Positions 14,125 through 20,806 of a stretch of 64,000 bases of DNA are shown one piece after another. Made by a program: the position numbers and the translations under genes. The stretch lies in NCBI RefSeq assembly GCF_037991315.1, contig NZ_CP150300.1, positions 3,224,001 to 3,288,000 on the forward strand. The letters are read 5' to 3'. Positions within the stretch are counted from its first letter, which is position 1, and every line of letters starts with the position of its first letter. The notes beneath the pieces were generated by a model, which worked only from the letters and a program-made list of their open reading frames with translations, had not been told where the DNA came from and ran no database searches. Source of the stretch: Paenibacillus sp. FSL H8-0079. Its GTDB lineage: Bacteria; Bacillota; Bacilli; Paenibacillales; Paenibacillaceae.

Positions 14125-14234
14125 TTGGTAATGATGATAGAATGGAATGAACAAGAAACATGTTAATGGATTGAACACTGCTTAATGTAAAAGATAAAGT
14201 GGGGTACATAATTTTTGTTGTGGAGGTAAACCTT

Positions 14235-14723
14235 ATGAATAAAGATGAACAATTCATGCATAAAGCGATTGAAATTGCTCTACAAGCTCGCAAAGAAGGA
14301 AACGAACCATTCGGAGCCATTCTGGTGAAAAATGGAGAGGTCGTCATGATTGGGGAAAATAAAATCAATACTTTTTGTGATCCCACACATCATGCAGAAA
14401 TCGGACTTATCCGAAAGTATTGTTCCGAACACCATGTGTTTGACCTGAGCGAGTACACCCTGTATACAAGTTGTGAACCGTGTGTGATGTGTTCCGGTGC
14501 CATGGTTTGGTCGAATCTGGGGAGACTGGTGTATAGCGTATCCCATGATCAATTAGCGAAAATCGCTGGCGGCAACATCATGATCTCGTGTGAAGAAGTA
14601 TTCGATAAAAGTCCTCAAAAGCCTGAAGTAGTGGGTGAATTGCTTAACGCAGAAGGATTAAAAGTATTCGAAGGATATCAATTTCATTCCGAGTCCTCAT
14701 CTGAACAAAAAATATATTTTTAA
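14235..14723 (+). CDS. Nucleoside deaminase (cytidine/guanine deaminase superfamily)
   Basis: Zinc hydrolase, 162 aa. The zinc and catalytic signature is complete: H53-A-E55 (THHAEIGLI) and P82-C83-x-x-C86 (TSCEPCVMCSGAM). The start is the ATG at 14235 with GTGGAGGT 7 bp upstream; the frame is open 36 bp earlier without support. Length and motif fit guanine deaminase or a generic nucleoside deaminase better than TadA, and no tRNA-binding C-terminal helix can be judged by eye. The substrate is uncertain. It stands alone between the P450 and a long leader region. Confidence 0.9.
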   Translation: MNKDEQFMHKAIEIALQARKEGNEPFGAILVKNGEVVMIGENKINTFCDPTHHAEIGLIRKYCSEHHVFDLSEYTLYTSCEPCVMCSGAMVWSNLGRLVYSVSHDQLAKIAGGNIMISCEEVFDKSPQKPEVVGELLNAEGLKVFEGYQFHSESSSEQKIYF

Positions 14724-15002
14724 TTATTGCTTGATTTTTTTTTCAACGTCTGATAGTGTAAGACCTGTGATTTTGGGAAGTTGATTTATCAATATTAATT
14801 AGAGCTTTCCAGCAGATAATTTTGACCACTTCTTCAAGAAGTTAAGGCCATACGGACAGCCGGGTCAAACGCCGATTGGCAACTTATGTTGCTTTATTGA
14901 TTGAGTTCAAAGCTCAAATTTTATAAGTTGGTTACTTTACAACCAGTGCAATTGCACATCAACTTGTGAAACGGTCAATAAGAGTGGTAAAGGCGAATTA
15001 TT
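14724..15002. other. Gene-free stretch with several hairpins, possible remnant
   Basis: No credible gene. Visible structure: ACTTC/GAAGT around 14827-14841 (a 15-bp near-perfect palindrome), TTGAG/CTCAA at 14901-14917, and a branched fold AAGTTG (14925-14930) closing to CAACTT (14960-14965) that contains the palindrome GTGCAATTGCAC (14946-14957). A 33-codon stretch without stops (14803-14901, plus strand) may be a decayed coding remnant, but I do not recognise it. There is no clear terminator for the deaminase. Confidence 0.4.
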
Positions 15003-15117
15003 TGCTATATAGACTCTGATCCAGTATTGATATACATGAAGGAGCTTTCCGCCAAAGGAATTCTTATGAATTTTATTTGGTCATGGAGACTTCACGTCTT
15101 TTTATGATGTATATCAA
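15003..15117 (+). promoter_or_regulatory. Riboswitch-like structured leader of the polyamine genes
   Basis: An extended -10 element TG-C-TATATA lies at 15003-15011. About 10 nt downstream of the implied start, an 11-bp perfect stem TTGATATACAT (15027-15037) / ATGTATATCAA (15107-15117) closes a 69-nt domain. Inside are AATTC-TTAT-GAATT (15059-15072), or alternatively TTCC/GGAA (15047-15060), and a long arm from 15082 to 15106 (CAT/ATG plus GGAGAC/GTCTTT, loop TTCAC) that stacks directly on the closing stem. A strong terminator begins 3 nt later and the first start codon lies 117 nt after the domain. The layout is that of a transcription-attenuating aptamer. It does not match a riboswitch class I can recall. 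The ligand is unknown; a polyamine or precursor is a guess from the genes. Confidence 0.5.
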
Positions 15118-15120
15118 CAA

Positions 15121-15169
15121 GCAAGTGTGATGATGCGCGATTGCGGGCATTTTTCACCTTGCTTTTTTT
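15121..15169 (+). terminator. Strong terminator inside the polyamine-gene leader
   Basis: Nested stem: GCAAG/CTTGC, GTGA/TCAC, ATGC/GCAT and CG/CG, with a bulged T, a G.G mismatch and an ATTG loop, followed by seven T (15163-15169). It lies 66 bp before the dehydrogenase start with no clear promoter in between, so readthrough control is likely. Confidence 0.75.
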
Positions 15170-15234
15170 GTTGTCTTGTTGTCACCGTATTAATCCAATT
15201 AAAAAAAATACATATTGGGATAGGAGAATGTAAA

Positions 15235-16473
15235 ATGGGAAAAGCACTAATCATCGGCGCCGGCGGCGTTGCTTCCGTGGCAGTACACAAATGCGTTCAA
15301 AACAGCGAAGTTTTTGAGGAAATCTGCATCGCGAGTCGTACGAAATCGAAATGTGATGAACTCAAAGCCAAGCTGGACGGCGGAAAAACTAAAATTACAA
15401 CAGCACAAGTAGATGCTGATAATGTTGACGAACTGATCGCTTTGATCAACGAAGTTAAACCGGATATCGTTATGAACCTGGCTTTGCCGTATCAAGATCT
15501 GACAATCATGGATGCTTGCCTTGCAACTAAAACAAATTACATGGACACAGCGAACTATGAGCCACATGATACAGCGAAGTTCGAATACAGCTGGCAATGG
15601 GATTACAAAGAGCGTTTTGAAAAAGCAGGCATCACTGCATTGCTCGGTAGTGGATTTGACCCAGGCGTGACTGGCGTATTCTCCGCTTATGCCCTGAAGC
15701 ACTACTTTGACGAAATTGAGTACATCGACATTCTGGACTGCAATGGCGGCGACCATGGCTATCCGTTCGCAACCAACTTCAACCCTGAGATCAACATTCG
15801 CGAAGTATCTGCAAACGGAAGATACTGGGAAAATGGTGAATGGATCGAAACGAAACCGATGGAAATCAAACGTGTCTACGACTTCAAAGAAGTTGGCGAG
15901 AAAGACATGTACCTGTTGTACCATGAGGAACTGGAATCTTTGGCTAAAAACATGCCAGGTCTGAAACGCATTCGTTTCTTCATGACATTTGGTCAAAGCT
16001 ACCTGACTCACTTGAAAGCACTTGAAAATGTAGGCATGACTTCAATCGAGCCTATCGAATATGAAGGAAAACAAATTATTCCATTGCAATTCCTGAAAGC
16101 AGTACTGCCAGATCCTGCATCCCTTGGACCACGTACTGTAGGTAAAACGAACATCGGTTGTATTTTCAAAGGTAAAAAAGATGGTCAAGACAAAACATAT
16201 TATGTTTACAATATCTGTGATCACCAAGAGTGCTACAAAGAAGTTGGTTCCCAAGCGATCTCGTACACCACAGGCGTTCCAGCTATGATTGGTGCGGCAA
16301 TGGTCATGACAGGCAAATGGAACAAACCAGGCGTATACAATGTAGAAGAGTTCAACCCAGATCCATTCATGGAAGAGTTGAACAAATGGGGCCTCCCATG
16401 GGTAGAAGACTTCAACCCGGTACTCGTTGATGAGCTGCCAGAAGAAGTTAAAGAATCGGAGCTTGTTCGTTAA
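15235..16473 (+). CDS. Carboxynorspermidine/carboxyspermidine dehydrogenase
   Basis: NADPH-dependent enzyme of the saccharopine dehydrogenase superfamily, 412 aa. It condenses a diamine (putrescine or diaminopropane) with aspartate semialdehyde and reduces the product to carboxyspermidine or carboxynorspermidine. The Rossmann motif GAGGVA is at residues 8-13, and the family signature GSGFDPGVTGVFSAYAL is intact. The start is the ATG at 15235 with ATAGGAG 8 bp upstream; the open frame before it runs through the leader terminator and is not coding. nspC follows one base after its stop, so the two are translationally coupled. This route replaces the SpeE spermidine synthase route of Bacillus subtilis. 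Confidence 0.93.
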   Translation: MGKALIIGAGGVASVAVHKCVQNSEVFEEICIASRTKSKCDELKAKLDGGKTKITTAQVDADNVDELIALINEVKPDIVMNLALPYQDLTIMDACLATKTNYMDTANYEPHDTAKFEYSWQWDYKERFEKAGITALLGSGFDPGVTGVFSAYALKHYFDEIEYIDILDCNGGDHGYPFATNFNPEINIREVSANGRYWENGEWIETKPMEIKRVYDFKEVGEKDMYLLYHEELESLAKNMPGLKRIRFFMTFGQSYLTHLKALENVGMTSIEPIEYEGKQIIPLQFLKAVLPDPASLGPRTVGKTNIGCIFKGKKDGQDKTYYVYNICDHQECYKEVGSQAISYTTGVPAMIGAAMVMTGKWNKPGVYNVEEFNPDPFMEELNKWGLPWVEDFNPVLVDELPEEVKESELVR

Positions 16474-16474
16474 A

Positions 16475-17602
16475 ATGCGGTTCGAGCAATTACCGACACC
16501 ATGTTTTGTTGTTGACGAGGCGCTTATCGAGAAAAACCTGAAAATCCTGAACGGTGTTATGCAGCGTACAGGTGCCAAAATCGTGCTGGCTCAAAAAGCA
16601 TTCTCCATGACTGCGATGTATCCGCTGATTGGAGAATACCTGAGCGGTGCAACGGCGAGCGGTTTGTATGAAGCGCGTCTGGGCCATGAGGAAATGGGCA
16701 AAGAGAATCATGTCTTTGCTCCGGCATACCGCGCAGAAGAGATCGACGAGATTATCTCCATCTGCGATCACATTATTTTCAACTCATTTTCGCAGCTTGC
16801 GAAATTCAAGGATAAGGCGCTTCAAGCTGGCCGTAAGGTCGGGTTGCGCGTCAACCCTGAATGCTCTACCCAGGAAGGACACGAGATCTACGATCCGTGT
16901 TCTCCGGGTTCGCGTTTTGGCGCGAAACTGGAGGATTTCGATGCAGACCTGTTGGAAGGCGTCTCCGGATTACACTTCCACACGCTGTGTCAGCAAAACT
17001 CCGACGATCTGGAAACTACGCTGAATGCAGTGGTCGAGAAATTCGGACAATGGTTGCCGCAAATGGAATGGATCAACTTCGGCGGTGGACACCATATCAC
17101 ACGTGAAGATTATGATATTCCAAGGTTGGAAGCTTGCATCAAGCGTATGCAGAACGACTATGGCCTGGAAGTATATCTGGAGCCGGGAGAAGCTGTTGCG
17201 CTGAACGCGGGTTATCTCGTGACTTCGGTGCTGGACTTCCATAAAAATGGCATGGACATTGCCATTCTGGATACTTCAGCTACATGCCATATGCCGGATG
17301 TGCTGGAAATGCCATATCGCCCGCCGCTGATCGGTTCGGGAGAAGTGGGCGAGAAGGCGCATTTGTATCGCCTTGGTGGACAAACCTGTCTGTCCGGTGA
17401 CGTGATTGGGGATTATTCATTCGATCAGCCTTTGCAAGAAGGCGACCGTCTGGTATTCGAGGACATGGCGATCTACTCCATGGTAAAAACCAACACGTTC
17501 AACGGCATGCCGCTTCCAGCGATTGCTGTTAAACGAAAAGATGGCGATTGCGAAGTTGTTCGCGAATTCGGGTATCAGGATTTCAAAATGAGGCTGGCAT
17601 AA
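16475..17602 (+). CDS. nspC: Carboxynorspermidine decarboxylase
   Basis: PLP enzyme of the alanine racemase/group IV decarboxylase fold, 375 aa. It removes the carboxyl group from carboxy(nor)spermidine to give (nor)spermidine, the last step of the pathway. The PLP lysine is K41 in LAQKAFS. The glycine-rich phosphate loop GGGHH, the EPGEA motif and the C-terminal ATCHMPDVLEMPY segment are all present. The ATG at 16475 starts one base after the upstream stop; the frame is open 48 bp earlier only because it overlaps the dehydrogenase. A strong terminator follows, so the operon has two genes. Confidence 0.94.
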   Translation: MRFEQLPTPCFVVDEALIEKNLKILNGVMQRTGAKIVLAQKAFSMTAMYPLIGEYLSGATASGLYEARLGHEEMGKENHVFAPAYRAEEIDEIISICDHIIFNSFSQLAKFKDKALQAGRKVGLRVNPECSTQEGHEIYDPCSPGSRFGAKLEDFDADLLEGVSGLHFHTLCQQNSDDLETTLNAVVEKFGQWLPQMEWINFGGGHHITREDYDIPRLEACIKRMQNDYGLEVYLEPGEAVALNAGYLVTSVLDFHKNGMDIAILDTSATCHMPDVLEMPYRPPLIGSGEVGEKAHLYRLGGQTCLSGDVIGDYSFDQPLQEGDRLVFEDMAIYSMVKTNTFNGMPLPAIAVKRKDGDCEVVREFGYQDFKMRLA

Positions 17603-20147: not shown

Positions 20148-20489
20148 ATGGCATGGTTATTTCTTATTCTTGGAGGAATCTTAGAGGTAGGTTGGGCATT
20201 AGGTTTGTCGTTCTCCGATGGTTTCTCAAAAATTGAAATCGTAATCCCCACGGTGATCTTAATGATTGGCAGCTTCTATTTTTTTGCAAAATCCACTAAA
20301 GTGCTTCCTGTATCAACCGCATATGCGGTGTTTACCGGACTTGGTTCATTTGGAACCGCAATTGTGGGAATGATTTTTTTGGGGGATTCCGTAAGTGCAC
20401 TCAAAATCGTGCTGGTCATGATATTAATTAGCTGCATTATCGGTCTGAAATTTGTATCCAATGAACCTAAACCAAAGGCAGGTGTATAG
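20148..20489 (+). CDS. SMR efflux protein, subunit 1 (Gdx/SugE-like)
   Basis: Small multidrug resistance protein with four TM helices, 113 aa. The essential Glu13 lies in LEVGWALGL, with W16 as in Gdx/SugE guanidinium exporters. TAYAVFTGLGSFG (TM3) is the family signature. AGAGGAG lies 8 bp before the ATG. The second SMR gene starts 3 bp after its stop, so the two probably form a heterodimer like YkkCD or YvdRS. A guanidine riboswitch (ykkC motif) is not visible upstream. Confidence 0.93.
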   Translation: MAWLFLILGGILEVGWALGLSFSDGFSKIEIVIPTVILMIGSFYFFAKSTKVLPVSTAYAVFTGLGSFGTAIVGMIFLGDSVSALKIVLVMILISCIIGLKFVSNEPKPKAGV

Positions 20490-20491
20490 AT

Positions 20492-20806
20492 ATGAGTTGG
20501 TTTTTCTTGATATTAGCTGGTTTATTTGAAGTCGGTGGTGTAATATTCCTGAAACTTTCAGATGGATTTACCAAATTGAAAAATACATTTACGTTCGCTC
20601 TGTTTTTGGGATTAAGTTTCATTTTCCTTTCCCTGTCGTTGAGAGAGATTCCAATCAGCATTGGTTACGGAATCTGGACAGGTATTGGTGCATCGGGCAG
20701 TGTATTATTAGGGATGTATGTTTTCAAAGAGCCCAAAAACGCAAAGAAATTAGCGATCGTTAGTGGGATTATCGTCAGTATTGTGGGATTGAAACTGGTC
20801 TCTTAA
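20492..20806 (+). CDS. SMR efflux protein, subunit 2
   Basis: 104 aa with four TM helices. Glu13 is kept (LFEVGGVIFL), but the Trp three residues later in the partner is Gly here, as expected for the diverged half of a paired SMR transporter. GYGIWTGIGASGS is the TM3 signature. It is coupled to the preceding SMR gene. Confidence 0.93.
   Translation: MSWFFLILAGLFEVGGVIFLKLSDGFTKLKNTFTFALFLGLSFIFLSLSLREIPISIGYGIWTGIGASGSVLLGMYVFKEPKNAKKLAIVSGIIVSIVGLKLVS

Follow-up and report, generated by a model that had tools for sequence, protein, structure and literature searches.

Spermidine riboswitches have been described as a variant of the SAM-I family built on a four-stem junction, 13 examples of which are given in the accessible part of the original report, where further classes are expected (Salvail et al., 2023, PMC10853860). 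According to the same part of this source, they control polyamine genes including ldcC and speD, and act as transcription-terminating OFF switches with an antiterminator. Other RNA motifs located near polyamine genes, speF, potE and odc1, have been reported in alphaproteobacteria or Veillonella (PMC8632094, PMC11477304). A speF-like motif has also been reported for C. difficile.

Another related system has been catalogued among the small RNAs of the pneumococcus. SN20 was listed as a tiling-array transcript of 318 nt, with a promoter and a terminator, in the SP0915/SP0916 interval, and a motif led to the speculation that it is an FMN switch (PMC2887815, in part). It lies at 869478-869791, 5' of SP0916, and is the same RNA as F59 and srn235 (PMC3395615, PMC2887815, PMC12323649, available sections). 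Under these names and that of Spd_sr49 (M7), it is catalogued as an sRNA of unassigned function in the sections available, with a Tn-seq lung fitness of 0.05 for SN20/srn235, and it was still a candidate sRNA in 2025 (PMC3395615, PMC2887815, PMC12323649, PMC4387999). By its name, F59 is probably the member behind the Rfam family RF02440 (SpF59 sRNA, 'ldcC RNA'), a model of 54 positions with the gene type sRNA. In the open literature on polyamine riboswitches, on ldcC RNA/SpF59/RF02440 and on carboxynorspermidine, including three surveys covered by term search (PMC8632094, PMC11109978, PMC6429828), no source seems to present the RNA analyzed below as a riboswitch, although the label 'ldcC RNA' may rest on a further source.

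Here, an RNA of this kind was analyzed in a window, the whole 64,000-nt stretch of DNA from Paenibacillus sp. FSL H8-0079, in which it precedes two plus-strand genes. The first (15235-16473) resembles carboxynorspermidine synthase/dehydrogenase (NF043000, 418.9 bits, E 2.6e-125, under the cut-off of 800) and the second, nspC (16475-17602, start approximate), encodes a carboxynorspermidine decarboxylase (TIGR01047, 486 bits, above cut-off). Since a SpeE spermidine synthase scoring above cut-off is also encoded elsewhere in this genome (G000:C1:121965-122762), the organism may make spermidine by two routes, with the leader on one of them only; a search of the genome with R1, a covariance model of the whole RNA built in the present analysis, found no copy at the SpeE locus. 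Elsewhere in the window, two adjacent small membrane proteins (20148-20806) have the look of a paired SMR transporter, judging by eye from their translations.

Searched against Rfam, the window as a whole gave a single match, RF02440 at 14823-14875, with 70.8 bits for a gathering score of 37.2. This family models one arm of the window's RNA, which measures about 220-245 nt in full, and as a piece of the same RNA it does not, in our view, represent an unrelated family. No SAM family matched within 14700-15300 at E values up to 10, which separates this locus from the SAM-I variant, and no FMN match, as guessed for SN20, was returned by Rfam in the window. The pneumococcal RNA is likened to it here by name and position.

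Architecture and covariation of the upstream RNA

The original prediction placed a sensor at 15027-15117, just 5' of a terminator, and proposed to look for covariation in the leaders of related genes. A conserved, covarying core was indeed found, but further upstream: the sensor-like RNA appears to occupy about 14774-15020, while at 15027-15117 the stem is kept and the sequence varies. Alignment of 39 distinct leaders from the window's family (a taxonomic family, defined by kinship in the genome search) shows conservation from about 14774 (P0/P1) to 15020, a variable stretch at 15027-15117, and then a conserved terminator.

The RNA can be drawn as helices P0 to P9, names coined in the present analysis, all on the plus strand. 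P0 (14774-14811) pairs UGGGAAG (14774-14780) with CUUUCCA (14805-14811) in an alignment made by eye; its support is comparative, since the fold of 14769-14818 reaches a z score of -1.7, equalled by 11 of 200 shuffles. The closing helix P1 (14811-15006) joins 14811-14820 to 14997-15006, with 87.5% of its cells paired and two-sided changes at 6 of 8 pairs. The RF02440 arm (14823-14875) is formed by P2 (14822-14827/14863-14868) and P3 (14828-14833/14837-14842), and is followed by the hairpin P4 (14878-14893; 14878-14883/14888-14893), in which all six pairs show two-sided changes. P5 (14894-14981; 14894-14902/14973-14981), with no two-sided pair, encloses P6 (14903-14907/14911-14915), P7 (14919-14971; 14919-14929/14961-14971), P8 (14930-14933/14941-14944) and P9 (14946-14950/14953-14957). 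An almost invariant tail, UGCUAUAUAGACUCUGAU (15003-15020), ends the domain. Folded alone, 14806-15019 has a z score of -3.4, with P1 in the centroid and not in the minimum-energy fold.

Two further pairings may complete this architecture. The CUCUGAU of the tail (15014-15020) is complementary to AUUAGAG in P0 (14798-14804), a weakly supported pairing that scores -9.9 with its own partner versus -8.7 with swapped partners (own better in 63 of 100). Across 159 loci, the word CGG(A/T)CAG of the RF02440 arm and the word GCCG were both present in 118, both absent in 26 and discordant in 10, the other five being P5-less, and this co-occurrence suggests a pseudoknot between the P2 arm and GCCG. Because some loci do without the arm, it looks optional, leaving P1, P4-P9 and the tail as the core. 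At gathering scores, Rfam finds nothing at the RNA in any of 13 loci chosen for missing the arm word [TC]GACC, a few of which keep a divergent arm, while R1 scores each of them at E <= 3.5e-18. Two variants were also observed. At L052, the 5' strand of P7 is lost together with P8 and P9, while ACUUGUG, the tail and a terminator are retained; this RNA may have degenerated or been rewired. Six loci (L228-L232, L234) carry a divergent form 5' of an Orn/Lys/Arg decarboxylase-like gene, followed by a terminator-like hairpin; the tail AUAUAGACUCUGA is replaced in all six, and the P2 arm reads AACCC/GGGUU in L230-L232 and L234.

Covariation was counted on a structure P1-P9 drawn by hand on the window's RNA, since RNAalifold performed poorly on the raw MAFFT alignment (93 sequences, 683 columns). 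In a MAFFT alignment of 28 of the 33 non-redundant sequences (from 94 of 185-225 nt, with L107, L133, L146, L151 and L172 excluded for their divergence), two-sided changes occur at 27 of 62 pairs, versus 17.0 after shuffling, and 87.6% of the cells are paired, versus 37-48% in slid controls. An alignment fitted to the model, and hence biased towards the structure (101 matches in 100 chosen loci), gave two-sided changes at 45 of 61 pairs for a shuffled mean of 25.4, and 92.2% of cells paired for 34-45% in slid controls; the shuffle controls are themselves inflated by kinship among the sequences. Compensatory changes are numerous in P2, P3, P4, P6 and P9. P5 and P7 are nearly invariant, partly by construction, as many sequences were gathered with one core word. 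Covariation is strong, and the domain that shows it, conserved and aptamer-like, precedes the gene.

This architecture also bears on the promoter. The extended -10 element that the original prediction read in TGCTATAT (15003-15010) is the 3' end of P1 together with the almost invariant tail: GACTCT was found in 165 of 173 loci, and the octamer preceding it is GCTATATA in 139 of these. Its role as leader promoter is ruled out by this membership of P1 (14811-14820 with 14997-15006) and of the tail. A consensus scan of 14600-15400 found no plus-strand promoter. A likely leader promoter was read by eye at 14731-14759 (plus strand), in the alignable stretch flanking 40 leaders from the window's family, with a -35 TTGATT (14731-14736), a 17-nt spacer and an extended -10 TGaTAGTGT (14751-14759). 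The preceding gene, which has the same orientation, encodes a TadA-like deaminase (14232-14720; PRK10860.1 of NCBIfam, 93.6 bits, under the cut-off of 150), and its reading frame closes at 14723, a few nucleotides 5' of the proposed promoter.

Distribution and downstream genes

Of 148 genomes sampled in the window's family, 40 carry RF02440, and each of the 40 loci precedes a gene closely related to the window's dehydrogenase gene. In the phylum, 18 of 398 genomes carry it. The full model R1 recovered all of these 18 among 24 of the 398 phylum genomes, and 38 of 378 genomes of the window's class, with one copy in the window's own genome; most genomes are thus devoid of the RNA. It also occurs in 4 of 20 genomes of the family of G436 and in 6 of 46 of the class of G469. 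A core-word pattern scan of named genomes gave at least 119 loci; the 80 matches listed are mostly from Clostridia, including Faecalibacterium, Blautia, Mediterraneibacter and Acetobacterium, and these names point to the Bacillota. One locus, with the RNA and a decarboxylase, stands on a contig titled Salinivirgaceae, a Bacteroidota name, through either transfer or mis-binning. One exact 19-nt pattern was absent from viral contigs.

Downstream genes were assigned at 173 loci (one genomic place being present twice), as the longest open frame starting within 900 nt. This frame is an Orn/Lys/Arg decarboxylase-like gene in 55, the dehydrogenase in 49, SpeD in 38 and none of these in 25, with no frame in six. 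According to tblastn, 13 of the 55 have SpeD ahead of the decarboxylase, and PotA accounts for 20 of the 25 otherwise unassigned. Overall, 165 of the 173 loci have polyamine genes downstream (decarboxylase-like, SpeD, carboxynorspermidine dehydrogenase, PotA), with SpeD, decarboxylase, dehydrogenase and NspC often consecutive. No polyamine gene was found at L112, L138, L155 and L172, nor at four contig ends or short frames, and NCBIfam has no family for the genes of L112, L138 and L172. The same library confirmed PotA in four of four cases (three above the NF043075 cut-off, that of L094 above the TIGR01187 cut-off) and placed a SpeD (L046) above cut-off and a decarboxylase (L041) under every cut-off.

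Interdomain stem-loop, terminator and proposed antiterminator

Between the conserved RNA and the gene, the stem, the branched domain and the terminator lie exactly as predicted. TTGATATACAT (15027-15037) is the exact reverse complement of ATGTATATCAA (15107-15117), giving the 11-bp closing stem, and the 91-nt domain 15027-15117 is stable on its own (-28.1 kcal/mol, z -4.5, no shuffle of 200 equal). The same holds for the predicted terminator: 15119-15170 folds at -22.5 kcal/mol (z -5.0, none of 200 shuffles equal), as a hairpin (15119-15164) whose run of seven T finishes at 15169. The predicted order of domain, terminator and gene is correct, an intrinsic terminator (15119-15169, plus strand) standing before the coding region of the dehydrogenase, which opens with the ATG at 15235. 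When 15003-15234 is folded as a whole (z -3.9), the 11-bp stem is in the centroid and absent from the minimum-energy structure.

The interdomain stem-loop (15027-15117, plus strand) retains its structure within the window's family, while its sequence and size change (61-143 nt among the unique segments), and 26 of 32 unique segments have z scores below -2. Outside the family, the mean z score is -1.4 (n=93; 31 below -2), and the segment is shorter than 40 nt in 7 of 102 leaders; in L044 it measures 26 nt. Of 162 leaders, 160 yielded a terminator-like hairpin. Some of these picks are erroneous, either falling within genes or, in L025, L027, L030, L032 and L040, taking the interdomain hairpin for the terminator.

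The 3' strand of P7 contributes to a putative antiterminator. The strand GCACAUCAACUUGU (14954-14967, plus strand) can form 14 pairs with the terminator 5' arm (15121-15126, 15128-15132 and 15134-15136, with 15127 and 15133 bulged) at -15.9 kcal/mol, the best segment of the leader, the inner 11 pairs alone reaching -10.0 kcal/mol. P7 and P9 are closed by this very strand, so that the antiterminator and these aptamer helices are, by complementarity, mutually exclusive. When every 14-nt segment of the RNA was paired with the terminator arm in the 114 of 162 leaders that passed the filter (one per distinct arm, terminator misreads that passed being kept), the best segment belonged to the 3' zone of P7 in 72, for an expectation of 22.7 with shuffled arms. 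On these sequence data, the complementarity of the P7 zone to the terminator arm can be considered strongly supported.

The evidence that the two strands covary appears modest. Own arms pair at -12.0 kcal/mol and swapped arms at -10.3 kcal/mol, the own arm surpassing the average of the swapped arms in 69 of 102 leaders (CASDH 21/25, LDC 25/34, SpeD 16/27, unassigned 7/15); in the 15 leaders with no LDC, SpeD or CASDH call, the gain is nearly nil (-9.6 vs -9.0). One antiterminator position is mismatched in 16 of the 72 leaders (14 A.C, then A.A and A.G) and shows a G-C change in two. The CAAG/CAGG arm word or the CUUGU word of P7 is missing in 42 of the 114; these include five terminator misreads and at least four leaders of PotA type whose pairing is shifted upstream by one step. 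The four PotA leaders L062, L085, L125 and L149 have an arm GUAUGC complementary to a GCAUAC just 5' of the P7 strand, which suggests a shifted antiterminator ahead of these uptake genes.

Proposed mechanism and competing explanations

Four features of this leader emerge from computation: a conserved fold with covariation, an association with polyamine genes, a terminator, and an unusual complementarity of the P7 zone to the terminator arm. From them, we infer that the leader of the carboxyspermidine operon is probably a transcription-attenuating OFF riboswitch, most likely for spermidine, in which GCACAUCAACUUGU would switch between P7/P9 and the terminator arm. Transcription would start near 14766 and yield a domain of about 245 nt, made of P0, P1-P9 and a possible pseudoknot with the P2/P3 arm. 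At high levels of the polyamine end product, most likely spermidine, its direct binding would close the domain, so that P7 and P9 hold GCACAUCAACUUGU, the terminator 15119-15169 forms and transcription stops, releasing an RNA of about 400 nt. At low levels, GCACAUCAACUUGU would pair with the terminator 5' arm and allow readthrough into the dehydrogenase gene and nspC. The stem-loop 15027-15117 could act as a compacting spacer between the antiterminator partners. The OFF direction follows from the assumption that a closed sensor accompanies terminator formation. The gene kinds found downstream share the supply of spermidine: as two biosynthetic routes, precursor synthesis and uptake all have it in common, it would be the likeliest ligand, other polyamines being possible. 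The originally predicted scheme of an attenuating sensor-terminator-gene leader is well supported, its sensor being relocated to 14774-15020.

Considered across loci, the RNA has a clear expression platform and stands as a strong candidate for a structurally new class of polyamine riboswitch. With rather less assurance than for the operon leader itself, we favor a second class of polyamine/spermidine riboswitch, widespread in Bacillota, of about 220-245 nt, with a fold unrelated to the SAM-I variant and controlling both synthesis and uptake. RF02440 would be one optional arm of it, and F59/SN20/srn235 may be its terminated product.

Among the alternatives, a cis-acting attenuator responding to a protein or to a non-polyamine metabolite, such as a precursor or a SAM derivative, is unlikely, even though the size and ornate fold of the RNA would also suit a protein-binding leader. 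The dehydrogenase and decarboxylase steps are SAM-free, and the presence of these steps and of uptake (PotA) among the controlled genes makes SAM derivatives improbable ligands. Less probable again is an independent, trans-acting sRNA of about 400 nt ending at the terminator, with the downstream gene under its own promoter. The cataloguing of the pneumococcal RNA as sRNA F59, SN20, srn235 and M7 agrees with this explanation, and so does the lung fitness of 0.05 for SN20/srn235 insertions, for which a polar effect is equally possible (PMC3395615, PMC2887815, PMC12323649, PMC4387999, available sections). Against it, the RNA precedes polyamine genes on the same strand in 165 of 173 loci, remaining while the gene kinds change, and its P7 zone finds a complement in the terminator arms; a trans-acting RNA would require neither feature. 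That the aptamer is 15027-15117 itself, as originally predicted, is highly improbable and was rejected, since despite its stable fold (z -4.5) and that of most family segments, its sequence, size and branching vary (61-143 nt), no conserved core was seen in the alignments and stability fades outside the window's family.

The OFF riboswitch reading has consequences beyond this operon. As a large and highly conserved RNA ahead of four kinds of polyamine genes, it is a strong candidate for the further class expected in the accessible part of Salvail et al. (PMC10853860), and the clarity of its expression platform makes it testable at once. Its range covers the window's family and Clostridia of gut and other samples. 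If the proposal is true, RF02440 would cover only part of a larger RNA, and the pneumococcal 'sRNA' tied to lung fitness would become a cis element.
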